Made by a program: the position numbers and the translations under genes
In this document: piece after piece, positions 8,608 to 56,024 of the stretch
Layout of the letters: each line of letters starts with the position of its first letter
Position numbering within the stretch: position 1 is the stretch's first letter
Assembly: GCA_963082975.1 (NCBI GenBank)
Contig: OY720349.1
Location: forward strand, 48,155,962-48,219,961
Source of the DNA: Labia minor
Lineage: Eukaryota; Arthropoda; Insecta; Dermaptera; Spongiphoridae
DNA: 64,000 nt
Reading direction: 5' to 3'
The notes under the pieces: generated by a model
Database searches by the model: none
Seen by the model: the letters and a program-made list of their open reading frames with translations, nothing else
Told to the model about the DNA's origin: nothing

Positions 8608-10163
8608 AATGATTAATATAAATTAATAAAAAATAATTACTTATTTATCAAATTGATTATAAAATGTTCATTTCATTTGAAGTTTAATTTTGATATAGTT
8701 TTTTTATTTTATTTTTTATTAATTATAATATGTTCTATTGAGGTTAACAATGTTAAAGATATATCACAGTGTTGAAATTAATAATTTTCAAATTGAATTA
8801 TTCTAACAAGAATTTCAATTTTATTTATAATTCATATATAATATAAAGGAATTTAATTTTTATGAATGCAAATATTGTAACATTAAATAATTATACAATT
8901 TTATTTTATTTATTTATTTGTTTTTTTTTTTGTACTTTAAGTATTTTCTTCTTATCTTAGGACTACGTCAATTCAATTGTCATTTCTCTCCAGCCCTATT
9001 ATACACCTAGTATAATTGATTCGTTTTTGATATTTCCATTTTTTTTATTTAATCCATTCTTTATCTATTTTAATATTCATAATTTAAAACAATTTTTCTG
9101 TCATTAATCTATTTTCATACATATTTATTAAAAATCAAACTAATTATCAATAGCGATTTTACACTTTAAAATTTTAGTTTCTAGAAAAAGAATGAAATTT
9201 ACCTTAATTTAATTTTTTGTAATAAAAATAATTTTCATAATTTACTTGATCTTTTATTAAAATATTTGACCAAATGATCTAATACAAGATGAAAAGTTGA
9301 AAAAAGGTATTGATAAACAAGGACTGTTGGAGACTGTAGACCTGCAAAGTCAGAGATAATGAAATGGCATTTAATTTACATGCCTAGGGATAGAATAAAC
9401 GATTTAAAAGATTCCAAATTAACAGGAAACCAAAGATAAGGCAATCTGCAAGTGTAATCTTTATTTCTAAACTTTATTAAATCTGGGATATATATACATA
9501 CATGTTCTCACAAATTCTTCGATAGTAATTAAATATCAATATTTTGTTACTAAATAAAACAAAATTTAACAAGAATTAAATCGGTGTAAATTAAATTAAA
9601 TCTTTTTTGCCGCCCGTTTTTGAAAATCCTATTATCATAAGAAATGCTTATGGTTATTGGCCATCTAACGGTGATGATTTACACTCCATTGGACCTTTTT
9701 TTGGTTGAAAATATTCAAAATTAAAATTATGAGATTTATAATGTGTTTTCTAAGTGTTTTTATTTTGAAAATATATTACTTTCTTATTATGAATCTAAGT
9801 TTTTGCAATGAACAAAAATAAAAACATTTTTATTAATTAAGTAATTAAAAATAAATTTTATTTGCAATTTTTATAACAATTAATTTATTGTATTAACCCA
9901 TTAACGCCCAATTTAGTTTTTTTTTAAAAAAATAATAAATCTCGTTTATAATACCTTAAAATAAAATAAAATGTACTTAAAAATATTTTATTATTTTTAT
10001 GAAGTTTGAAAATATGAGCTGTCCTCGGACGCTGGGCATTATAATTAATTTGTAGTTTAATTTTGTTGTCCAAAAAATGATTAATTATTTTTTGTTGTTT
10101 GATATCAAAAATTTTAAGAATTTACTGGAAGGGATATTCTATATTTCTTTGGGTTATTCATTA
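8608..10163. other. AT-rich intergenic region, no gene seen
   Basis: No coding frame is credible here. Around 9894-10045 there is a weak pair of inverted ends (TTAACCCATTAACGCCCA against a right end whose complement reads TTAATTATAATGCCCAG), vaguely like a decayed piggyBac-type MITE. A plus-strand frame at 10099-10302 overlaps the start of repeat family R and is not a gene. Confidence 0.5.
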
Positions 10164-10596
10164 CTATCTCGCAAGAGATGTCGAGATTTTGATGTTTTTA
10201 TACGTTTTGAAAGTCCCTGAGTCATTTTCACTAATGTTGAGAAAAATGTCTGTGAGTGTGAATGTAGACAAGATTACACAAAAACGGTTTGAGCTAGAAT
10301 AACGAAATTTGGGATACGGGCATTATTCAAAATTCGTAGTTTTCTATCAACTTTTGAGAAATGTAGCTCAACCGGAAGAGGGTCATATAGAATTTCAGCT
10401 TAATTGAATGGTTGAAAGTAACAGAATTAATTTTAATTTTCTAACACGTTGACTGTCAATCACGCGCCAACACGTGACGTGGTGTCATCAACAGAGCCAA
10501 ACACGCGCTGGTTTAATAAATATTATATTTATCAATTTTAATTTATAATTTAATTTATTAAATTTAATTTAAATATAATATATGTTTAATTAATCC
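10164..10596. mobile_element. Repeat family R, copy 1, left part (interrupted by the hAT element)
   Basis: Starts CTATCTCGCAAGAGATG and runs to the hAT insertion site. It is about 85-90 percent identical by eye to copies at 52377-52839 and 54791-55354. This copy lacks an internal segment of about 130 bp (after GAGGGTCAT) that the other two contain. The family ends CTATCTCGC and GCGAGATAG form short terminal inverted repeats, suggesting a non-autonomous DNA transposon. The right end resumes at 21384 after the target duplication. Confidence 0.75.
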
Positions 10597-11171
10597 CAGT
10601 GGCGTACCTAGTAGGGGGGAGCGGTGGGTGCGGTCCGCACCGGGCGGCACTTATCTTGGGGCGGCATTTTTTATATTTAGTTATAGTTGTAAAAAGCAAC
10701 TTATTCATTTCATATTTATTTTTTTTTCTTTCTTGAATAATAAATGATTATTATGATTATTATAAGTTTACTATTTGATTTATATAAATTATGATTAACT
10801 ATATGATTTCGAATATTATTCCTCGATGTATATAAATGCAATTTAGTGTAAATTTTGAATTCTAATTCCAAGAACAAACAGGGTAATAATTTTATTTTAT
10901 TGTATTCATTAAAATTCGTTGAATTCGTAAACGCATCTTTGCGATTTTGTTCGGCAATTTTTCCTAACTAAAATTTTTTCATATCAGTTTATAAATGTCA
11001 TTTCTTTTGAAAAGTTTATATGATTAGATGATTACTTTGAAGTGATATACTAATATTTTTTTAAATCATCGATTTTTCTTTTGAAAAGCAGGGCCGGCGG
11101 AAAAAATATAAATATAAATTTTGAGAGCATTATACACGATTTTTCTAGGATGAAAGCTAGAAGAGTAAATC

Positions 11172-11283
11172 TATATATATAAAAAAAGGTTTTTGTCTGC
11201 ACATTGCTCAGAATTTAAAAATTTTTGCATATCTTCGCGTTTCATGACCTCTAGAATCCAAAAGTGACTTTAGAATTTTTCAC

Positions 11284-11350
<67 letters not shown>

Positions 11351-11773
11351 CGGAAAATTACTATTTTATAGACTCAGAATTGGCTGAACCGATTTCTTTG
11401 AAATTACATCACAATATTCTTATATACCTCTAGAGTAACATAGGCTATAAATTTTATTAATATCTTATCAATAACCGCAGAAATTAATTTTTTAAAGTTT
11501 ATATAATTCTCCGTGTTGTTCATTCAAGAGCAGCTCGCGGCTCACTGTCGGCCTAGCGGAATCATTTCAAACAATGAATTATCATAGAGATTCCCAATCG
11601 AAGAATTATTATAATATTTCCCTTTTTATTTTAAATTCTAATATACAAATATCAATTCAATTAAATAATTTATTCTAAAAGTTCTCAATTTAATTAAAAT
11701 ATTTATTAGATCATATTTTTATCTTAAATTATTTTTTATTTAATTGAATATTTCTTCTTTTCTATAATATATA
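11172..11773 (+). mobile_element. Helitron head, copy 1 (5' part, interrupted by LTR retrotransposon)
   Basis: Begins TCTATATATATAAAAAAAGG after a host A, as Helitrons do. It contains a (GTCT)n microsatellite at 11284-11350, then CCGGAAAATTAC and GGCTGAACCGATTTC. Apart from microsatellite length it matches 17876-18494 at every base I compared. The LTR retrotransposon interrupts it after 11773, and about 45 bp more of it follow at 17831-17875. The copy then stops where the second head starts. Confidence 0.7.
11284..11350 (+). repeat. (GTCT)n microsatellite in Helitron head 1
   Basis: About 16 tandem GTCT units, bounded by TTTTTCAC on the left and CCGGAAAATT on the right. The twin copy at 17990-18072 has a few more units, which is the main difference seen between the two heads. 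Confidence 0.95.
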
Positions 11774-13510
11774 TGTAATATAGTGGAGATATATTGTCTT
11801 GGTGTGATGGAGATGTATTATATTTGATATATTGAAAATATATTATCTTAGTGTAATGGAAATATATTATTATGTTATCTTTAGAATGTGTAGAAATAGA
11901 TTATATAAAATACATTATGTCATAGAGTAAGAATGTGTTAAGCCCTGGGAATATATAATATATAGAATAAGAAGAAGGAAGGCCTTAGCTGGCATTCCTA
12001 GTGGAATGATAATTCCGTGAGAATAAAATATGATAATAGTTATATAAGTAAAGAAGGATTGTAGTGGGTGGGAGTGAGACGGAGGTATGTTGATAATGGA
12101 TTATCGCTGGCCGCCCGTTCAAGGCTGCTGGGGGGTAATGGAATTCGCATAGGTAGCGTCTGCTAGAAAATAAGAAATGATTAAGTCGAGAGGATGTACG
12201 TGGGTGGGAGTGAGATAGAGACAGGATGGAGACAGAGGAGTCAGCAAGTGAAATGGCTCAAGGTGATGGGAAAGAAATAAGAAATGCGTAGGTGAAATAG
12301 GAACCGCGTGGGACGCCCGTTATGAGTCGAAACCATAATGTGCAGATTTTTGCATTACAGAGAAGAGAGATGGGTGCCTAGGGAAGGAGAAGGGAATGGA
12401 GAGGAGAAGGGGGAGAAGACTTAGAAAAGAAACAGCGCGGACAGGCCTGGAGTCAGAAAGTGAGAAAGTTACAAGGGTCGTAAGATGTGATACACGGAGG
12501 CCCCCCGGCAGGGGAAGAGAGGGGGTAGGATGGAAAGTGTGCAGTGTATGATGTATTATAAGGGGATGAATTATTGTTAAGTGATTGTGAGTGTTTGTGT
12601 TAATATTTTTAATTATATCAAGTGTTAATATTTTTAGTTATATCCATAGTAAGTGTTCGGCCGACACGACAACTAATTGTAAGTCTAATACATGTATTTT
12701 AAATAAATTAAGTAAATTGTTTTCAAAAGATATCAATATCAAATTGACTAAAGTAATATACATTTGAATAAGTAACTTATAATTAAATTTTGTAAATTAT
12801 AATTAAATGAATTTCTGATTTGAAATAAATTAAATGAAATGTTTTCAAAAGTTATCAATATCAAATTGAATAAAGTAATATACATTTGAATAAGTAACTT
12901 ATAATTAAACTTTGTAAATTACAATTGAATGAATTCAGAATATGAAATAAATCAAATGAAATATTTGTAGATGAATTATAATTAAATGGATTAAAATAAA
13001 ATTAATTAAATAAACAAGTTAAATTAAATAAATTATATTTAAAAGAATTAATGTAGAATTGATTGAATAAATAAATTAAATAATATAAATTAGGATTAAA
13101 TGGATTAATATAAAATTAATTAAATAAACAAGTTAAATTATGTGAATTATAATTAAATGGATTAATGTAAAATTAATTAAATAACAAGTTAAATTAAATA
13201 AATTATATCTAAAAGAATTAATGTAAAACTGATTGAGTAAATAAATTAAATAAATTATAATTAACTGGATTAATGTAACCTTATTAAATGAACAAGTTAA
13301 ATAAATTGTAATTTGAAGAGACTAATAATTTGAACTCGATCAATAATTGTATCTTGATTAAATAAACAAATTAACTTAAGTTAAAGGATGTTAATAATAA
13401 CCAATTTGACCCGCTCGTCGCATACAGGTGGCATAATCTTGTTCCTTCCCTTCTAGTATTATGTAAAGTAAATGCTCGGCTTTAAAGTAAGTACTCGGCT
13501 CTATGTTACA
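11774..13510 (+). repeat. 5' LTR (1737 bp)
   Basis: Runs from TGTAATATAG to TATGTTACA. The first 1.2 kb is roughly 80-85 percent identical to the 3' LTR, while 13021-13510 differs from 17341-17830 at one base only. The AT-rich tail consists of diverged blocks with the motif ATTAAATGGATTAAT, and the number of blocks differs between the LTRs. Fragments with GGCATTCCTAGTGGAATG near 11990 are shared with the 3' LTR. Confidence 0.85.
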
Positions 13511-13512
13511 AC

Positions 13513-13531
13513 TGGTGTCAGGTGTGGGGTT
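13513..13531 (+). other. Primer-binding site, tRNA-Leu-like
   Basis: Two bases after the 5' LTR the sequence reads TGGTGTCAGGTGTGGGGTT. From memory of eukaryotic leucine tRNAs (3' end CCCACTCCTGACACCA), this is complementary to a tRNA-Leu 3' end with about two mismatches in 19. Position and leading TGG are as expected of a minus-strand primer site. Confidence 0.65.
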
Positions 13532-13701
13532 GAGGGTTTAGGGTTGGAGGGTTAACTAATGAAGCTCGGGATAATTATTGGACGCTATCGGCTAACTGGG
13601 GGATAACAGATTTTCTTTCTTAGGTGAGGGAGAGTACGGAAAAATTAAACCCTAGACCTGGTGTTTGCTCAATATCAAAGTTGAAAACACCCCCCACGAG
13701 A

Positions 13702-13812
13702 AATGGAGGAACAGATACATAATGATGAATAACAAGATACACAAAGATCGATAACTCCCAGCTATATGTTAAGTCAGCTATTAGAAAATTGGGATGGAAA
13801 TGAGGATATCAG

Positions 13813-13843
<31 letters not shown>

Positions 13844-15000
13844 GCAACAGTTAAAAGATATGGCCACTTTAGGAAATTGGACAGAAGAAGGGGCGAAAAT
13901 TATTTTGAAAGATTATTTTGTTAGATGTTTTCATACAGGGATTACGGGGAGAGACTGGTAGGAATGTAAGAGTAGCAGTTCCAAGGGATAGGAATAAAGC
14001 GCTGGAGATAGGCGAAACATGGGAAATAGAGGAGCGAGATAAGCAGGAAGGCAGGACAAGGGAATAGTGGAGGGGATGTCGCCCTGGGCGGGGATGGGGC
14101 AAATGGACCTATTCTTCAATAAGTTTGAGCAGCTGGCCAAAATGGGTAACATACCCGACGACCAGAGGAAGGAGGTCGTGGAGTGGAAGATGGAGGGAAC
14201 GGCGTTGAGGGTCGTCCGAAGATACCCAACGATAACACTTAGGAATGGGTGAAGAAACAACCAAGAGCGAGGTTCAAACTGGAAGACACGGCTCACGAGT
14301 AACCCTGCGATTAGGGGCAGGTGATACAATGGTAAACGGGAAGGACACAAGGCTCGGAGGTGAGAGAAAGGAGGAAGAAATGCAAGAGGAGGTCGCGAGA
14401 GCACGAATCGTTAGCCCTGAATAAGAGGACGCGGAATTTGGAGCCATTAGTGGCATTCCGGCGGTCACTGAGATAGAGGAAGGGCAAGAGGATGTCGTGA
14501 GAGCGAGAATAGTTGGCCCTGAACATGCTGACACGAAATTTGGAGCCATTAGTGGCATTTCGTCGGTCACCGAGAGAGAAGAAGGGCAAGAGGAGGTCGT
14601 GGGAGAAGGAGTCGTAGCACTGAACACGATGACACGGAATTTGGAGCCATTAGTGGCATTCCGTCGGTCACCGTGGTAGAAGAGGTGCAAGAGGAAGTTG
14701 TGAAAGCGAGAGCACTTAGCACTGAACGAGATGACACGGAATTTGGAGCCATTAGTGGCATTCCGTCTGTCACCGAGAGAGAAGAAGTGCAAGTGGAGAG
14801 CGAGCCAGAAGGGGAGGAGGAATCCCTCAGGATTGATGGAGGAGATTCGGAGTCTCGGCGACAGGAGACCGAGACTGGTGAGCAAATTAGTCAAGGGGAA
14901 ACAGGACAAGCCTCGCGGGTAGAAAGAAGGAACAACGGGACTACGAAGCCATTGACGACCCTCACGAAGAAAGACCAGAAGTTCCAATATGGATGCCACG
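13702..15000 (+). pseudogene. Degenerate gag-like frame of the LTR retrotransposon
   Basis: From ATG at 13702 a broken frame encodes MLSQLLENWDGNEDIRKFF, then after a T-run QQLKDMATLGNWTEEGAK, and near 14100 FFNKFEQLAKMGNIPDD followed by RKEVVEWKMEGTALRVV. These short helical blocks ending in a G-x-A motif resemble retrotransposon Gag capsid. In-frame stops and frame shifts (for example after GITGRDW near 13955) break it. A T homopolymer of 27 bases at 13817-13843 disrupts the frame. Downstream the frame passes into a 34-residue acidic tandem repeat. Not functional as read. Confidence 0.6.
14434..14800 (+). repeat. 101-102-bp tandem repeat, 34-residue acidic units, about 3.6 copies
   Basis: Units begin at 14434, 14536, 14637 and 14739, each starting (G/A)AATTTGGAGCCATTAG. 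Three intervals are 102, 101 and 102 bp. Translated, a unit reads EFGAISGIPSVTEREEGQEE and continues acidic; the single 101-bp unit shifts the frame, so the array was once coding and has since decayed. A partial unit precedes it at 14371-14433. The long antisense frame at 14274-15053 is a shadow of this array. Confidence 0.85.
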
Positions 15001-15890
15001 GTTAGGGGTGGCATGGAGGCCCAGCTCAACACCGGAAGCCCGAGAACAAGCACTTCCCCAACAGCTGGGGCGACAGGGAATACTAGTAGTCGTAAACCAC
15101 CCGTTGAGGTCCCACCAAAGGGAAAGGGGAGGGCGATCGGAAAAGAGAACCATTAGGAAGTTTCACGAAAACGGGAGTAAGGTATCTTTGTTCCTTCTCT
15201 AGCAGGTTAGACTATCGCTACGATGGGAAAATAGGCAAGGGAGAGGGAAGAGGTAATGCCACTGGGAATTTATTTTGAACAAGTCGACGTATAATAAATT
15301 AATCTTTCTTTATTCATATATTAAAGAGAAGGTATCGGTCATCAGGGAGTCTCGGGAGAAATTACAGGATGACCGATACGCTCTCTTCGAACGGGAACCG
15401 TTGAGGTTGATAGATTTTAAGGAGGATATGCCATATGTTAAACCAGTTTCGAGATGACGGAGGGGATTATTTCACATTTGAGTGAGACGCTACCCCCGGC
15501 GCGAAGTCGACGTGGTTTGGTAGACGCGGGGGGCACGATTTAAAAATTCGTTTGTTTTTGAAACTCTAGATAATGAAGATCTGGTGGAATTGAATGCCAG
15601 AGTATAAAATTTAAAGGAAGTTAATGACCAAAACACGACGCCTGGGGCAAGCAGTAACGTCAGTTCGAAACTGGTTAGAGGATGTCCTCGAGATTGTTCA
15701 ATGTTACTAGGATTAATTATAGGTATAAGTAGGGAACTCCTTGAAGGAAGGGAAAAGCTGACCCGCTGGAACTACGATCTGTTTGGAAGAAGCGTGCACG
15801 GAAGAAGAAGGAGGACGGGAAGCTGCAGAGTCCACTGAGGAGTGATGGTGCTGTGACCAGGGACAAAACAGAGGAGGGGACGAACTGTTG

Positions 15891-15935
15891 AAAAGGATTG
15901 TTTCGTGAAAAATCTTTATCCCGAAACAATCTTTT
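15891..15935 (+). other. Hairpin immediately upstream of the polypurine tract
   Basis: The arm AAAAGGATTGTTTCG (15891-15905) is nearly the reverse complement of CGAAACAATCTTTT (15922-15935), with one bulged base and a 16-base loop. It ends three bases before the polypurine tract. Confidence 0.6.
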
Positions 15936-15937
15936 TT

Positions 15938-15951
15938 AAAAGGTGGTGGAG
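15938..15951 (+). other. Polypurine tract
   Basis: AAAAGGTGGTGGAG directly precedes the TG of the 3' LTR. It is mostly purine and correctly placed to prime plus-strand synthesis. Confidence 0.7.
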
Positions 15952-17830
15952 TGTAATATATTGGAAATATATTATATTAGTGTAATGGAAATAAATTATC
16001 TTTAGAATATGTTGGAATAGATTATATAATATACATTATGTCATGTATTGAGAATATGTTAGAATAAGAAGAAGAAAGATTAGCTGGCATTCCTAGTGGA
16101 ATGATAATTCCGTGAGAATAAAATAAGATAATAGTTATATAAGTTAAGAAAGATTATAATAAGTGGAAGTGAGATGAACGATGCTGGAGGGGTGAAGGGG
16201 GTGGGCCGCGACAGGAAGGAGGCGGCCGGTGTAATGAGAATGGTGTGGGAAGATATGATTACCGTTGTCCACACGTCTGGTCGAGAATGGAATTCGCAAA
16301 CGTTGGCGTTTCATAGAAAATAAGTTAATAATTAAGTTAAGATAATGTATGTAAGTGTAAGTGAGATAGCCGATAAGGGATAGAGGAGGGGGTGAGGAGA
16401 GACAGGATGGAGACAGAGGAGACAGCCAGTGAAATAGCTCAAGGTGATGAGAAAGAAGGCATAGGGGTGAAATATGAATCGCGTGGGACCCCCGTTCAAG
16501 GCTATGAGTCGAGACCATAATTTGCGAATATTTGCATTAGAGAGAAGAGGGATGGGGGCCTAGGGAAGGAGGAAGGAATGTAGGCGAGAAGGGTCAGAGG
16601 GAGAGCGGGGGAACAATAGCGAGCTCTCGGCATTGGAGAGCCTCTGGCAGTAGGTGACTGGGAGATGTAAGATGTAGTCACACATAGAGACAGAAAGATA
16701 CGGAGGGCGTAAGATGTGACACACTGAGGCCCTGGGAGGGGAGAGAGGGGTAGGATGGAAAGCGTGAAGTGTATGATATAGTATAAGGGGATGAATTATT
16801 GTTAAGTGATTGTGAATGTTTGTGTTAATGTTTTTAATTATATCAAGTGTTAATATTTTTAATTATATCAATAGTAAGTGTTCGGCCGACACGACAAATT
16901 GTAAGTCAAATAACATGTATTTTAAATAGATTAAATAAAATATTTTCAAAAGATATTAATATCACATTGAAAAGTAATATAAATTTCTTAAGTAATTTGT
17001 AATTAAATTGTGTAAATTATAATTGTATGAATTTCTGATTTTAAATAAATTAAATAAAATATTTTCAAAAGATATTGATATCAAATTGAATAAGTAATAT
17101 AAATTTGATTAAGTAACTGATAATTAAATTTTGTAAATTATAATTGAATGAATTCAGAATATGAAATAAATTAAATGAAATGTTTCTAATTAAATTACTA
17201 TACATTTTATCGGGTAACTTGTAATTGAATTGTTTAAATTATAATTAAATGGATTAATATAAAATTAATTAAATAAACAAGTTAAATTATGTGAATTATA
17301 ATTAAATGGATTAATGTAAAATTAATTAAATAAACAAGTTAAATTAAATAAATTATATTTAAAAGAATTAATGTAGAATTGATTGAATAAATAAATTAAA
17401 TAATATAAATTAGGATTAAATGGATTAATATAAAATTAATTAAATAGACAAGTTAAATTATGTGAATTATAATTAAATGGATTAATGTAAAATTAATTAA
17501 ATAACAAGTTAAATTAAATAAATTATATCTAAAAGAATTAATGTAAAACTGATTGAGTAAATAAATTAAATAAATTATAATTAACTGGATTAATGTAACC
17601 TTATTAAATGAACAAGTTAAATAAATTGTAATTTGAAGAGACTAATAATTTGAACTCGATCAATAATTGTATCTTGATTAAATAAACAAATTAACTTAAG
17701 TTAAAGGATGTTAATAATAACCAATTTGACCCGCTCGTCGCATACAGGTGGCATAATCTTGTTCCTTCCCTTCTAGTATTATGTAAAGTAAATGCTCGGC
17801 TTTAAAGTAAGTACTCGGCTCTATGTTACA
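15952..17830 (+). repeat. 3' LTR (1879 bp)
   Basis: Starts TGTAATATATTGG and ends TATGTTACA, then TATA. It is longer than the 5' LTR mainly because of extra copies of an AT-rich block near 17200-17340. The last 490 bp is almost identical to the 5' LTR tail, while the upstream part has diverged strongly. Confidence 0.85.
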
Positions 17831-17989
17831 TATATATAATAATATATAAATTTTATCATTGAATAATAATCTTAATCTATATATATAAAAAAAGGTTTTT
17901 GTCTGCACATTGCTCAGAATTTAAAAATTTTTGCATATCTTCGCGTTTCATGACCTCTAGAATCCAAAAGTGACTTTAGAATTTTTCAC

Positions 17990-18072
<83 letters not shown>
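17990..18072 (+). repeat. (GTCT)n microsatellite in Helitron head 2
   Basis: About 20 GTCT units, longer than the twin array in head 1, flanked by the same unique sequence. Confidence 0.95.
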
Positions 18073-19949
18073 CGGAAAATTACTATTTTATAGACTCAGA
18101 ATTGGCTGAACCGATTTCTTTGAAATTACATCACAATATTCTTATATACCTCTAGAGTAACATAGGCTATAAATTTTATTAATATCTTATCAATAACCGC
18201 AGAAATTAATTTTTTAAAGTTTATATAATTCTCCGTGTTGTTCATTCAAGAGCAGCTCGCGGCTCACTGTCGGCCTAGCGGAATCATTTCAAACAATGAA
18301 TTATCATAGAGATTCCCAATCGAAGAATTATTATAATATTTCCCTTTTTATTTTAAATTCTAATATACAAATATCAATTCAATTAAATAATTTATTCTAA
18401 AAGTTCTCAATTTAATTAAAATATTTATTAGATCATATTTTTATCTTAAATTATTTTTTATTTAATTGAATATTTCTTCTTTTCTATAATATATATATAA
18501 TAATATATAAATTTTATCATTGAATAATAAAAAAAAATATTATTTAACCTGAATTAAAATGACTGAATTATATTATCTTTGTTTTTTATTTTAATTTAAT
18601 TACTCTATTATTAATTAACTATATATATATATATATATTATATAAAAATTAAAATATGATGATATAAAGTTGTTTTAAATTTTTGACATTTTTAAATTGG
18701 GTATATTTTTTAAATTTATTAAAATGTCTTTTTTATTTATTATGTTTAAAAGATTCATTTTTATTATGTGATATTAATAAAAAATAACGATGCTCTGTGC
18801 AAGTCGAATCATGTTGCACATAATTAAATAACAATTGCCAAACAAAGAATATAATATTTTTTTAAATTCTTATATTTAAATATCATTTCAATTAAATAAT
18901 TTATTCTAAAAGGTCTCATTTTAATTAATTTAATAAAATATTTAAATCACCATTCAATTTTTTATTAATAGGCTTCTTTTTTTATTTTTAATTTTTAATA
19001 AATTCTCTTTTTTTGATATGATATTAATAAAAAATAATATTAAATTGTATATATAAATATAAAAATTAGAATATTTGAATTTTTTTAAATTTTAACACAT
19101 GTAATCAATCATATGCATTAAGAATGGAAAATTTTTAAAATCAACTTGCTATTAAATTCAGAAAAAAAATACTGATATATAGAATATATAGACTATTCGA
19201 ATATAATTTAAAACTCTTTCTCTCCTTCTATTTTAAATTAAAAAAACGGAGTTTTAAGAAATTTAGATGCCATATGCAACATGGGTGGGTAAATGAATTG
19301 GGCTGGAAGAGGAGGCAATTTATAATTTTCTTCTAATTCAGATTTAGGACTCAAATCTCGCTAAGAACATTCAATATTTTTGTACACAAAATATTCAGAG
19401 TATTGGCTAAGCGTATCACTCACAATCAGTGTAAATTGAAATTTATATAAATTAACAAAGTGAAAATTTTTATTTGTTTAAATTTTATTATAATGAATCA
19501 AAAAAAATTAAATATATAGATCACATGATTAAGAGAAGCAAAAAATTTAACAGAAAATAACTGTTGGATGGAGGTCGGACATGACAGAAACTGTAAGCGA
19601 AATCTTCATATTGCGACGAATAATTTTCAAATCCCCTAGCACCACAGAATTTAAGTTTCTTTTAAGGAAAATAACTATGATCTAAAAAAATTAATAAATG
19701 AACTTAATAATAAAAAAAACAAATAAATCAATTAATTTAAATTAATACTATTAATGAATGTATATATTGGTCATTTATCTATAGTTTTATACCGTTAATT
19801 TTTATAAATTGTCTCAAGTCTCTATTTTTGCATTTTCTCAAGTTTCATTATAATTAAAAATATTCAATAATAATCTAGCAATGAAAATAAAATACCAAAA
19901 TGTAATGATCAAGAAATATTATACTCTATTATAACATATACAATACTTA

Positions 19950-20945
19950 TAAACTATAGGCGGAGGAAATATTAGGAGATATCATTGCGGGTTCAGGCCA
20001 AATCGACCAACATTAATTAAGATATTTTCATTATGACAGATATTAGGAACAAAACCGCGAATTCAATATTTCTGTTCACTAATTTTAGTTTAGTAAAACA
20101 TACGCATAACTCAATAGATCCGGATAAACTTTTTCAAATTTTCAATCTTCAAATTTCTCTTGAAGGTAGTAAAGAAAGAATAAGATGCGGAAATCAATTG
20201 TAAAATATTAGGTTACTCAGACGACTTAAATATAATAGGAGATTCGGCAATTGCAATTACAGATAGCGAGGAAAATTTAATGGAGGTTTGAAATTAATAG
20301 TGATAAGAAAAAATATTTAGTAACAATGAGGAAGAGTATTAACATACAAAATCTTAAGATACAAAATGTAGAATTTGAATATGTAGAAAAATTGAATGTA
20401 ATCACGAAGGATAATAATATTTGAGAAGAATTTAAATCTGGGTTGCAATCGGGAAACGCCTGTTATCTGCAATAAAGAGGCTTATCTCTTCAAAATTATT
20501 ATCAAAGGGAATATATAAAAAGATTATTTTGCCTGTTGCATTATATGGGTGGGAGGCATGGTCTATGACCCTTGGAGATGAGAGTAGATTCAGAGTATTT
20601 GAGAATAGGATTCTTCCCTGCATTTATTGGCCAAAGAAAGATGAGGTCACCGGGTATGAGGGAGACTGTATAACAAGAAATTGCATGGCCTCTCTGCATC
20701 TTCAGAAATAGTTAGGGTTATAAAAGGGAAAAAGCTGCGATAGGCAGGGCACGTGGCAAGAATGGGAAAGGAAAAAGATATTGGTGGGAAGACCGATTGG
20801 AAAACGTCCGCTTGGAAAACCAATGACGCGTAGGAAGGGACGTAAGAGAGATGGAATAAGGGCTCAGGATAGGGACACTTGGAGAAATGTGGTTGTTGCG
20901 GCTAAGAACTTTAGAGTATCTTTGAGCCACATAGGTAGATAGATA
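19950..20945 (+). pseudogene. LINE (non-LTR retrotransposon) reverse transcriptase relic, C-terminal part
   Basis: Broken plus-strand frames spell recognisable LINE blocks in order: HCGFRPNR near 19985, GYSDDLNIIGDS at 20211 (the catalytic YADD box with A changed to S), then SKLLSKGIYKKIILPVALYG and WEAWSMTLGDESRFRVFENR at 20490-20610, and LR-AGHVARMGK near 20735. The gene is broken by stops and frame shifts. The upstream N-terminus and endonuclease are absent. The family looks RTE/Jockey-like, common in arthropods. The same 3' part occurs in inverse orientation at 62820-63165, each time joined to the same Helitron-like tail. Confidence 0.75.
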
Positions 20946-21148
20946 TAACATATACAATAATAATATATATAATTAATATAGTGATTAAATTAAAATATAT
21001 TTTTTAAATAAGAACACAAAAAGAAATGAATGTTTTATGTAATATACTGATTGAAACAAAATGGATGAAAACCTTTTAATACTTTCAACCACCAAATACT
21101 ATGTACAACTCGGGGGTACAGGGGGCGGAGCCCCCGTCTAGGTGTGAA

Positions 21149-21176
21149 GAGCGCCGAAGGCGCTCTGAGCAGCTAG
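21149..21176 (+). other. Helitron 3' terminus: hairpin plus CTAG
   Basis: A 7-bp stem with a 3-base loop, seven bases, then CTAG before a host T. A second GC-rich hairpin GGGGGC-GGA-GCCCCC precedes it at 21121-21135. These are the rolling-circle termination signals of the Helitron. Confidence 0.75.
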
Positions 21177-21375
21177 TATTATATAAATATGTATACGAGT
21201 GTATACAAATATGTGTAAAAAAATTTACTCTGTATATTAATTAATATTGATTAAATAACTTAATAATTTATTTATGTGTATTAATTTATAAAAACAACTA
21301 TTTGATTGACTTATAATAAAAAGGGCGGCTAACTGGAGATCGCCCCGGGCGGCAAAAGTTCTAGGTACGCCACTG

Positions 21376-21397
21376 ATTAATCCAATTCAAATTTGTG
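21376..21397. mobile_element. Repeat family R, copy 1, right end after the hAT element
   Basis: The second ATTAATCC duplication is followed by AATTCAAATTTGTGATAG, matching the right ends of R copies 2 and 3. The shared similarity runs on for about 25 more bases (TCGAGTGGACACACTCCAG and a T run). Confidence 0.75.
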
Positions 21398-22436
21398 ATA
21401 GTCGAGTGGACACACTCCAGATTTTTTTATGTTTCTCGATGTATATATATGCTTTATAAATTTTATATTTATATGTTAAAACTTGATATTTTTGTTTTCT
21501 TAAATATTTTAAAAATAAAAGAGATATAACAACAATGTGAATTTCCTTTTTTTTGTAATAATAAAATTCAATAAATGAGCCACTCAGAAGCCAACCGATT
21601 AACTCCAATTTTTAAAATTTTGCTAGTAATGTAATATAATGTAATGTAATCTGCAACATATGAAATTAATATTCAACTTGATAATCTTAATATTGCAATG
21701 CAATATACATTTTACTGTAATCGATAACCCTGTATTTACTACAAACTGTGAACTTTGGGCTTCATTTTCTCAGTTTGTTTCTATGTTTCTGTTTCTTTGT
21801 TTATATGTGGAGTTAAACGGTTTGGCATCTCACAGTTGCTCAAATATTAACGAAAAATTTAATCAATGCCGGCTAATTTATTGAGATAACTTAAGTCATA
21901 AATAAAGTCAATTATATTGGAAACTAATTTTTCTTTACTCAATATTTAATTAATAAAAGATTTTAAAATTATTATCAAAATTTCTTATTAATAGTTAAAT
22001 AATTAAAACTAGTTAATCAATCCTGAACTACAACTTTCAATTTCTAGAATCATTACATTAAAATTTAAACAACATTCTATATTCCATTATTTCAAAATAG
22101 TAATAATTCCTTTCTATAGATAAAATTTTTAATTTTTAAATTATTTATTCAAATAATTTTTATAATAGAGTAGATCGATTGAAGAAGAAAGTTTAACAAC
22201 TTGTTAATGAAGCATGACGTCATGCCTGTAACTGTCATTTCTATGTTTTTCTCATGATATTCCAATATATTTGACTTTTAAATTTTAATTAAAATTATAA
22301 AAAATACATAATCGCAAATTGATTTTTTTAAATTATATCATCATCTTTATGATGACTGAAAATAAATAGATTTTTCAGAGAAAAAAATAAATATAAAATG
22401 TTCAAAAATTATAGAAATTAATCTAAAAACTAAAAA
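21398..22436 (+). promoter_or_regulatory. Region upstream of VPS8, probable promoter
   Basis: AT-rich, with a perfect 14-bp palindrome GCATGACGTCATGC at 22212-22225 containing a consensus CRE/ATF site 212 bp before the VPS8 ATG. A seven-codon upstream frame starts at 22398 and ends before the main ATG. The 74-codon frame at 21660-21884 begins with a hydrophobic stretch but shows no known domain. The transcription start cannot be placed. Confidence 0.4.
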
Positions 22437-51141: not shown

Positions 51142-54100
51142 TCAATGGGGAATGGGATGGGATGATCGGCCACCACTCGTGTGATTACTGTAACCAGAGT
51201 CCGAGTCCTGGGTTGGGGGTCGGAATGATGCTAACGGTGGTGCCGGTGTATTCGAGGGAGGCTGAAGTCGTGACATCACTGGCACACATTCATAGGGCGG
51301 CGTAAGCACATAAGGCAGACGCTTGGGCGTATTCGTGGGGTACAAGTGCCACAGGGCGTCCATTAGCAGTCCTTCATGGAACTGTTGCGTGGGAGGATTC
51401 GGAGGAGGTTGACTGGGTGCCTGTTTCCGACGACGCCTATCTAAACTCCGTCCTGGAGGATGCTGCCGATGCCGATGACTACCAGGAAGAGAGAGATGCC
51501 GCGGCCCTACGTAACGAGAACTTTCGTCCGGTACGGAGCTGTTGCAACAATCTCCTGCCAGAGAAAGTTCATCTTCGGCAAATTCATCTTCCGATCCTCC
51601 ACCACCACCTCCCCCTTTGGCGTGTGTACCATGACGAGTATGTGGAGGTTCTGGCTCCACATCAGAATCACCGCGATCTCCAGAACCTAAAAATCAATCA
51701 ATTCAATTATCAAATGAACCTAGGTTAGTTCATATAAAAAAAAATATATGAAAAATTGAATTTGTTTAATAGAAAATATTCAATATTTTTAGAAATTAGA
51801 AATTCTTATAGTTGATCAATATATTGTTATTTAAATTAAATTATTAAAGCTTTGGTGGTTGTTTTTATTTATAACGGAATTTTGTAAATTAAACCACATA
51901 TTGTGATATTTGTTATTGTAAATTTATTCAAAAAATACAAATATATACACAACGTTTCGATTGCAGAAGTAGCAGAAGTAGCAATCGAAACGTTGTGTAT
52001 ATGTTTGTATTTTTTGAATAAATTTACAATAACAAATATCAATATGTGGTTTAATTTACAAAATTTGTTATTTAAATGTTTTTTGAAATAATAAGTTTTA
52101 TATGTTATTGGTTATTTCATTTTAAATTTATATTGTGGTAAAAAGATTACATTTTTTAAAACAAAAAAAAACTAAGTTATGAATTTAACTAGTATTATTT
52201 TTTTATTTATTCAAGAAATACATATACACCTAATTCTGTTTTTACACGGTCTTTTTTACACGGTGTGAAAATCAAGAATTTTATTTTTTTTTACACGAAT
52301 TTATTCGATTTAGCACGGTTCAAACTATACAAAGAGGTAGCAACAATTGGCCGACACCGGCTCATAACAGAGTTCACTGTGTGTGTAGACAAGATTACCC
52401 AAAAACGGTTTGAGCTAGAATGATGAAATTTGGTACATGGGCATTATTCAAAATTCGTAGTTTTCTATCAACTTTTGAGAAATGTAGCTCAACCGGAAGA
52501 GGGTCATTACCTACAACATTTTGATTTTTTTTTCTTCTAGAGTGACCGTAAAAATAAAGATATATGTTTGATAATTTTTCACATCATTAATAATTGTATA
52601 AAACTGCTATACTTATATAGAATTTCAGCTTGATTTATTTGGTGAAAGTACCAGAATTAATTTTTTAACACAGCAAATCTCACGCGCTAACACGTGACGT
52701 GGTGCCATCAACAAAGAGCCAAACATGCGCTGGTTTAATAAATATTATTTATTAATTTTAATTTATAGTTTATAATTAATTAAATTTAATTTAAATGTAA
52801 TATATTATGTTATTTAATCCAATTCAAATTGCAAGATAGTCGAGTGGAGACACTCCAGCTTTTTTTTAAATTTATTTTTGTTTTAAAAATTGAATAATTT
52901 ATTCTTTTTACTAACAACATAGCTGTTTTGCATACAAACATTACTTTTTTTAGTTCCTGAACTTGTCATACATTTAATTTACATTACATATTTTTAAGCT
53001 CTTAGAGTGCTTATTTTTTTCCTTTAATAATTATGCTTAAATACACATTATATCTGTGATTTAATAAAATAAACCTGAATACATATTCTTAAAAAATCCT
53101 TATTTTTCTCTAATTTTAATAGGTTTTAGAGATAAGGAACCAATCACCAATTTTTGCATAAGATCAATGTCTTTTTTTGCGCGATTTTTTCTGGAACCAA
53201 TCTACCGTGTAAAAACAGAATTAGGTGTACATTCATTTGTATGTTATTTCAGTTCACCTTTTTAACTAGAAAATATAAAAGAGCATACCATTAGATAGTT
53301 CTTCATAAACTGGATTATAGAGATCCTGTGAAGCGTAGGGATCCGGAGGACAAATAAAAACGGGACCTTCTGGCCGAAACATTGCTGAGCCAGATTTTAC
53401 ATCCAACATCTAAAAAAAAAGAAAATAATTCAAATATTCTGATAAGAGAAAAATATACAATATATTTATTTATGAATAATGGGCTTGTAAAAAAAAATCA
53501 ACATAAATCACTGTATTTATTATAAAACCAATCATTATTGACTTTAATGAGTTTCTACACTCTCCCTTGTGGATAATTATAATTATTTAATCAATGATTA
53601 GCCTAACTGGTTATGTTGTTAGGCAGCATTTTGGTTAGGTAGGTGGTTAGTATTCTAGCAACAACATCAATGCAACGACTGCAATTGCATTCAAAATAGA
53701 AAGATATATCATATAATATGATGTCAGAATTTGTGGAATGGGGAGGGAGGAGGGGTGTTTTCAAATTAATAGATTGCGTGTCTGTGGGATAATGACTTTT
53801 ATTTAATTTGTCCGATCGGTGTGGCACACGAATAAAGATTAAAATGAATTTAACGAGACCCATTAGTATAATGAGTGTTTGTTTTAGTTAGCTCCAAATC
53901 CACTTCATCTGCTATTTTGATCTCTTTTTATTTTATAATAACATATACATATCAATAAATAGCATAACTATATACACATATATACATAATGTATCTCATT
54001 GATAGTCTGAGGTTTTTTGTATATTATTATTATTATTATTTTTTTTTTTTTATTAATATAGTTAAAAAATATTTTCAATTAAAATTATGATATATATTAA

Positions 54101-55354: not shown

Positions 55355-55372
55355 CCGAGTGGAGACACTAAC

Positions 55373-56024
55373 TTTTTACCGACCGACGATAGTAAGGGAG
55401 GTATTGTTTTCACACCAAATTTCACATGTGGAGATTTTTACATATCTCCACGAATCGTGCATTTTCTAAACAGAAAAAAGTATTTTTAGCATGATGTCTG
55501 TCCGTCCATCTGTCCGTCTGTCCGTCTGTCCGTCCGTATAGATGTGTACAGCCTGAACGGCTCAACGGATTTTGATGAAATTTGGAATATTTACTTAATG
55601 CATCAGTGGGATGAATTGATCAACTTTTGGTGCAAATCCGGAAACCGGAAGTGGTAGTATTAACGATCGACGATAGGAAGGGAAGGGTTATTTTCACACC
55701 AAATTTCACATGAGGAGATTTTTTTATATATCACCACCAATCATGCACTTTGTATTGGTTTTATCCTCGGGAAAATCATATTTATTAGTTTTTTCTTGAT
55801 TTAAAATTATATGACGTCATCCAGCCATTCATGACGTCACAGCCTGGTCTTACATATATATTATAAATAAAATAAAATTAAAAATATGTATATGTTATAT
55901 GCCTATCTGTTTTTTATTACATTAATAGATATATTAAAATTATTGGAAATTGTTTCTGTAGCTGGAAATTAATTTACTTCAAACCGTCGGTCGGTTCGGA
56001 CCTGGCCACAGGTCAACTTATTTT
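55373..56024 (+). mobile_element. Helentron/HINE-like repeat, copy S1
   Basis: TTTTTACCGACCGACG begins the copy and CGTCGGTCGGT (55985-55995) lies near its end, forming subterminal inverted repeats. A (GTCY)n tract is at 55497-55539, and a perfect 6-bp hairpin GACCTG-GCCA-CAGGTC at 55999-56014 precedes a T-rich end. That layout (subterminal repeats, GTCY microsatellite, 3' hairpin, insertion in T-rich DNA) is the one described for DINE-1/HINE elements. Two CRE octamers TGACGTCA lie at 55812 and 55832. Non-coding. Confidence 0.7.

Follow-up and report, generated by a model that had tools for sequence, protein, structure and literature searches.

Normal reverse transcription of a long terminal repeat (LTR) retrotransposon yields two identical LTRs (PMC5668417, PMC1950507), and LTR pairs serve as absolute clocks for insertions, whereas nests of transposable elements serve as relative clocks. 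In a survey of fifteen plant species, the LTRs of inner, nested elements were in part of the nested pairs less similar than those of the outer elements, and gene conversion was blamed (PMC7251063). Recombinant LTRs are frequent in bursts of the Onsen family (PMC5668417), and abnormal template switching between co-packaged RNAs has been proposed for a chimeric Triticeae LTR element with target-site duplications (TSDs) (PMC1950507). Here we describe a transposon nest in a 64,000-nucleotide stretch of the Labia minor genome, referred to as the window (G000:C6:48155962-48219961; assembly of 604 Mb in 71 contigs). Both clocks are present at this locus, and they are in conflict: the LTRs of the newest layer are 89% identical, whereas the surrounding host copies show 0 changes in 575 bases.

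Nesting of this sort is ordinary; what is new here is a hybrid LTR pair whose age was checked independently. As in the plant nests, LTR similarity can make an inner, younger element seem the older one, but PMC7251063 presents a statistic over fifteen species, whereas the present locus is a single case in which related segments are identified and age is checked against an empty site. As in Onsen, members of one LTR family recombine; the Onsen mosaics lie within an LTR, whereas here the two LTRs of a single insertion differ, and the covered text of PMC5668417 reports no single new insertion with two different LTRs. The Triticeae complexes likewise include a chimeric LTR element with TSDs, but they possess three LTRs, the outer two of which are alike, whereas the nest has two that are unlike. 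A literature search for precedents returned none, which is weak evidence.

Insertion order of the nest

The locus is a real transposon nest of four layers with a readable insertion order. A repeat designated R was the first occupant; a non-autonomous hAT element of about 772 bp inserted into R with an 8-bp duplication; a non-autonomous Helitron carrying a LINE-like (long interspersed nuclear element-like) relic entered the hAT element at an A^T site, with an extra truncated head in front; and an LTR element finally entered the extra head, duplicating 4 bp (TATA). Whole-genome searches with the individual segments recovered unfilled copies of each level, and these paralogous empty sites in the same genome bear out the order that the initial annotation had read from the window. 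The insertion order together with the hybrid nature of the LTR element we regard as very probable. The full account, in which four layers arose by ordinary transposition and the young hybrid LTR element was born before integration, is in our view reasonably probable.

The newest layer, the LTR element at 11774-17830, begins with TG, ends with CA, is flanked on both sides by TATA, and splits a Helitron head, X1 (unless stated otherwise, features of the nest lie on the plus strand). The first part of X1 (11170-11773) opens with 5'-TC after an A and closes with one target-site copy, TATA, whereas the remainder (17831-17869) opens with the second (17831-17834) and ends 35 bases beyond it. Joining of the two flanks minus one TATA reproduces the complete Helitron downstream, X2, across 426 bases of the left flank and 35 of the right, in agreement with the earlier description of a first head hit by an LTR element. 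Outside a GTCT array, which has 16 units in X1 and 20 in X2, the two heads do not differ at any of 575 bases, and the LTR insertion is therefore recent.

The two LTRs differ in origin

The LTR element consists of a 5' LTR of 1737 bp (LTR1, 11774-13510), an interior designated Z (13511-15951), and a 3' LTR of 1879 bp (LTR2, 15952-17830). Alignment of LTR1 with LTR2 gave 173 mismatches and 360 gap columns, for an identity of 0.894. Comparison with other loci of the genome (given by L numbers) revealed LTR1 to be a mosaic: positions 11774-12519 resemble L041 and L031, with 1 mismatch to L041; positions 12538-13034 resemble L044, with 3 mismatches; and positions 12997-13510 resemble LTR2, with 1 mismatch. 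Sequence of one type (A) thus gives way at 12997-13034 to that of a second type (B), which continues to the end of LTR1. LTR2 is of the type found in L032, L033, and the 3' LTR of L029, with an identity over 1879 bases of 99.9% for the L032 LTR and 99.8% for the L033 LTR, and Z differs from the interior of L029 by 0 substitutions and 5 gaps.

Twenty LTR-element loci were fetched, of which 13 simple two-LTR elements were counted and seven (L029, L030, L038, L039, L040, L047, and L048) were excluded because they are tandem or inverted or are interrupted by the end of a contig. The LTR pair differs by 0 to 1 base in all 13 of these simple elements, and the mismatch between LTR1 and LTR2 is accordingly attributed to recombination rather than to age. 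Given that the stretches of LTR1, as well as Z and LTR2, are nearly identical to other young members, divergence of the LTRs with age is excluded. We therefore rejected the LTR difference as a sign of an old insertion, near-identical relatives of LTR1 and Z and the identity of X1 and X2 all speaking against it. The LTR element is a young hybrid in which most of the 5' LTR has an origin other than that of the interior and 3' LTR. A 4-bp TSD read by eye fits the flanks of all 14 simple elements including that in the window, with TA-rich surroundings in three (the window, L041, and L043).

For the first 1227 bases of LTR1, no match above 98% other than the window itself was present among the best 40 of 208 candidates. 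By position these 40 places form 21 loci. In 17 of these loci, two or three LTRs with the same or almost the same score are spaced about 4 kb from one another. The remaining four stand alone (the window, C4:69152597, C5:72796345, and C6:41169698); at C4:69152597 and C5:72796345 a single LTR1-type LTR adjoins an interior, and none of the 40 scored places supplies a partner for it, although the picture would be no different for a partner that scored too low, was truncated, or was missing.

Full or nearly full relatives of Z number 28 besides the window (best 40 of 317 candidates). No Pfam match was obtained for Z in the frames tested, nor for a minus-strand open reading frame (ORF) of 292 amino acids in its 102-bp tandem repeats (14374-14798). 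Among the seven excluded loci, the LTRs are unlike in L029, L030, and L039, alike in L047 and L048, and unmeasurable in L038 and L040. L047 and L048 (G000:C1:15590272-15599443 and G000:C9:30442666-30452063) are tandem LTR-interior-LTR-interior arrays. L030 and L038 (G000:C10:22264095-22275866) comprise inverted copies that have an LTR region in common, with no TSD around L030 as delimited. L029 (G000:C1:101974664-101982109) has the interior closest to that in the window and an unlike 5' LTR that follows a piece of another interior bearing a deletion.

Origin of the hybrid LTR pair

We tentatively favor reverse transcription as the source of the hybrid pair. In this view, strand transfers among distinct element RNAs packaged in a single particle would have produced the hybrid, which would only then have been integrated, in the normal way. 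Given that normal reverse transcription gives identical LTRs, a second intermolecular transfer must be assumed. The junction between L041-like and L044-like sequence may be new, since no scored place exceeds 98% identity to the first 1227 bases of LTR1, and a new junction would fit several switches in a single round of reverse transcription.

Several points weigh against this origin. The presence of a different U3 in each LTR is abnormal and calls for either the second intermolecular transfer or later conversion. The switch points in L031 and L030 lie elsewhere, and no fixed boundary at the R region of the LTR was apparent. Unlike LTRs also occur in the complex loci L029, L030, and L039, where they could have come from recombination of integrated copies with one another, and L029, with the interior closest to that of the window, is among them. 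In addition, the sequence is highly repeated and was read from the assembly alone, so that an assembly error is conceivable, and scoring in each genome search was limited to the best 40 candidates.

The main rival retains the same insertion order. X1 would have received a normal element with matching LTRs, in which about 1.2 kb of the 5' LTR, or all that follows it, was later replaced by the sequence of another member through ectopic gene conversion or a crossover with another copy. Conversion is common between LTRs, converted regions having been predicted in 25% of LTR pairs in PMC7251063, where nested LTRs were less similar than those of the host element in 1042 of 4126 pairs; this genome also offers many donor-like copies, as well as the complex copies with unlike LTRs. 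The A-type sequence, however, begins no further than ~10 bases into the 5' LTR (tgtaatatag at 11774 versus tgtaatatat at 15952), so that a replacing tract would reach the edge of homology. LTR1 would further require two donors or else a mosaic donor, of which none was seen among the 40 scored places, and the 575 of 575 identical head bases leave little time for such an event. We consider later conversion or crossover a distinct possibility, at somewhat reduced probability.

Recombination of a circle with a solo LTR would also yield unequal LTRs around a B-type interior, if an A-type solo LTR in X1 had received a B-type one-LTR circle. This scheme accounts for both the A-to-B switch in LTR1 and the retained TSD, and the tandem copies described above are a possible product of such recombination. 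It predicts an A-type tail for LTR2, yet LTR2 is 99.9% identical to the L032 LTR throughout, and the tail of L031 differs from LTR1 at two sites at which LTR2 agrees with LTR1. A solo LTR might have had a B-like tail by chance; overall, we judge this scheme unlikely.

Misjoining of near-identical Helitrons or LTR elements during assembly could in principle have created the double head or the unequal LTRs. Material for such an error is at hand: the last 780 bases of the Helitron are ~100% identical in all 40 scored places (best 40 of 2421, window included), and Z and the 3' LTR have a near-identical sibling at L029. The TSD copies to either side of the LTR element nevertheless match, X2 is restored exactly from the flanks, and 71 contigs for 604 Mb suggest a long-read assembly. 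We consider an artifact of this kind very unlikely.

With reverse transcription retained as the tentative explanation, the unlike LTRs of L029, L030, and L039 demonstrate that the family gives rise to copies of this sort, be it by this route or by conversion or crossover after insertion. A broader proposal, that intermolecular plus-strand transfer between co-packaged RNAs recurrently yields elements of this non-autonomous family with two-parent LTRs at birth, is more doubtful; C4:69152597 and C5:72796345 would be two further cases.

The Helitron and its second head

Helitrons are recognized by a 5'-TC terminus, a CTRR-3' terminus, and a 3' hairpin (PMC4778049). X2 (17876-21176) is a full element extending from TC at 17876 to CTAG at 21173-21176, with the hairpin GAGCGCCGAAGGCGCTC near its 3' end, a preceding A, and the host T (21177) after it. 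The same TC and CTAG ends and hairpin are present in L053 and L054, and the 3' end also in L005. The unfilled site, AGTAAA|TATTATAT, was read at the exact position in the hAT elements of both L002 and L055, indicating insertion at A^T of the hAT element with no duplication. Flanking A and T are also found in L053 and L054; in four other 5' flanks, the base before TC is A (L049 and L050), G (L051), or T (L052). No ORF of at least 110 amino acids was detected in 17876-21176, on which basis this copy appears to be non-autonomous. L053 differs from X2 by 3 mismatches and 6 gaps over 3307 aligned positions, and L054 by 31 mismatches and 44 gaps; X2, L053, and L054 all lack the LTR element. The identity of the 40 scored tails indicates that the family has spread very recently.

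The LINE-like coding relic (20480-20940) lies within X2 as initially described, but it does not constitute a layer of the nest. The segment at ~20.5-20.94 kb is putatively of LINE origin on the basis of COOH-terminal motifs such as HNEELH and GHVARM; a Pfam search in three frames returned 0 families. The relic falls within the last 780 bases of the Helitron, is present in all 40 scored tails, and recurs in diverged relatives (L005 and 62.6-63.2 kb of the window). A separate insertion of the relic into the window Helitron was thus rejected, and the relic is inherited, fixed cargo of the Helitron family.

Two Helitron heads are indeed present in the hAT element, X1 from 11170 and X2 from 17876, with the six bases TCTTAA (17870-17875, no strand assigned) between the X1 stub and X2. 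The upstream flanks of four other Helitron copies contained no second head of the X1 type; L052 has a head-like stretch of 75-78% similarity about 100-320 bp upstream. Additional head pieces beside full heads were observed for 5 of 40 scored heads, in the same orientation at C1:50470098 and C4:32582397 and inverted at C4:82845309, C5:49497203, and C5:9701706. The two heads may represent one double-headed insertion or two events, and two separate Helitron insertions need not be invoked. In PMC5148889, Fusarium Helitrons with two 5' termini on one 3' terminus were described and self-insertion was proposed, with one element located 2 bp upstream of the partial 5' terminal sequence of another. The nest Helitron similarly has two 5' termini and a single 3' terminus; it differs in being canonical (TC and CTAG ends, A^T site) and in the order of its parts, with the partial head followed by six bases and then the full element.

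The hAT element and the repeat R

The hAT element spans 10597-21375, and its own sequence of ~772 bp is divided into a left part (10597-11169; terminal inverted repeat CAGTGGCGTACCTAG) and a right part (21177-21375; terminal inverted repeat CTAGGTACGCCACTG). These terminal repeats are exact over 15 bp and are shared with L002 and L055. The 8-bp duplication ATTAATCC flanks the element on both sides, with R sequence continuing beyond. Such a combination is no chance pattern, and insertion of the hAT element into R, as first proposed, stands. The 772 bp contain no ORF of at least 110 amino acids, and a cut-off of 80 yielded one of 83 amino acids; from its sequence, the element is probably non-autonomous. 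The copies in L002 (760 bp) and L055 (701 bp) lie in complete or incomplete R without a Helitron. Aligned parts of the window element are 93.6-94.3% identical to L002 and 92-93% identical to L055, with L002 and L055 being 89% identical to each other. The initial annotation had noted that its order would fail if genomic hAT copies always contained the same interior; L002 and L055, without the Helitron, do not. Movement of the hAT element and its full interior always as one unit was rejected for the same reason.

DINE-1/HINE elements have subterminal inverted repeats, a 3' stem-loop, and T-rich borders (PMC4067079). R shares these three HINE/Helentron traits, though its copies vary, and on such sequence features it is described as a HINE-like rolling-circle repeat, the first occupant of the nest. 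Its refined boundaries are about 10163-10596 plus 21376-21420. The 5' part starts with ACTATCTCGC and ends, at the hAT element, with one target-site copy (10589-10596); the 3' part opens with the second ATTAATCC (21376-21383) and ends with the stem-loop stretch variant GAGTGGACACACTC. Relatives are numerous (best 40 scored of 5289 first-look candidates). Comparison of the ends of seven copies (L003 to L007 and the window copies at 10 kb and 54.8 kb) showed the exact start ACTATCTCGC in four, the exact GCGAGATAG near the end in five, and the exact stem-loop stretch GAGTGGAGACACTC in three, with variants in the others; a T run immediately precedes the start in five. Copies without the hAT element include two in the window, a 5'-truncated one at 52.4 kb and another at 54.8 kb, as well as L003, L004, L005, L007, and L008 elsewhere in the genome.

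Three R copies hold a hAT element within one 13-bp stretch in a single orientation. That of L055 occupies the same 8 bp as in the window, its TSD being likewise ATTAATCC, and that of L002 lies 5 bp further on, with target-site copies TTCAATTC and TCCAATTC that differ from each other at one position. A fourth place, C6:19861303 (19861303-19861482), matches across the right junction of the hAT element; its left junction was not among the best 40 of 852 candidates scored for that side. Among the best 40 of 1302 in the right-junction search, three span the junction almost fully (the window, C6:19861303, and L055), C9:42813733 spans it partly, and 36 end at or just past the hAT end, with 96-99% identity. 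Given that the query favors such junctions, this result is a lead on a hotspot and gives no rate. The AATTAATCCAATTC stretch in the 3' part of R is a possible hotspot for hAT insertion. As to whether R and the hAT element instead traveled together, the evidence leans toward separate insertions, since divergence between L055 and the window is greater in R than in the hAT element, a comparison affected by the AT-richness of the stretch and the incompleteness of R in L055.

Other features of the window

The window has an A+T content of 74%, and ORFs near the nest match the Pfam models CAF17 C-terminal, CDPF1, and VPS8. Three further nestings or abutments of the same families were found as initially reported. 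The inverted ends of the 52227 and 5711 elements match; the former holds an R fragment and the latter a 92-bp relative of the Helitron head with 79% identity. R adjoins S1 near 55372-55377. The segment 51878-52065 is an imperfect palindrome of 188 bp with an 89% match to its own reverse complement, and adjoining ORFs at 51142-51728 had no Pfam match.

Implications for LTR-based dating

Dating by LTR pairs would misjudge this nest, in that its newest insertion would be read as old. Given that the related segments are recognizable, the locus demonstrates that an appearance of age can result from recombination. It is a case of the same sign as the trend described in PMC7251063, with recombination between members visible, and it opens the way to asking what number of insertions regarded as old are in fact young hybrids. 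If recurrent birth of hybrids were true, dating by LTR pairs would fail systematically, and part of the excess of nested elements that appear too old would consist of recombinants rather than converted copies.

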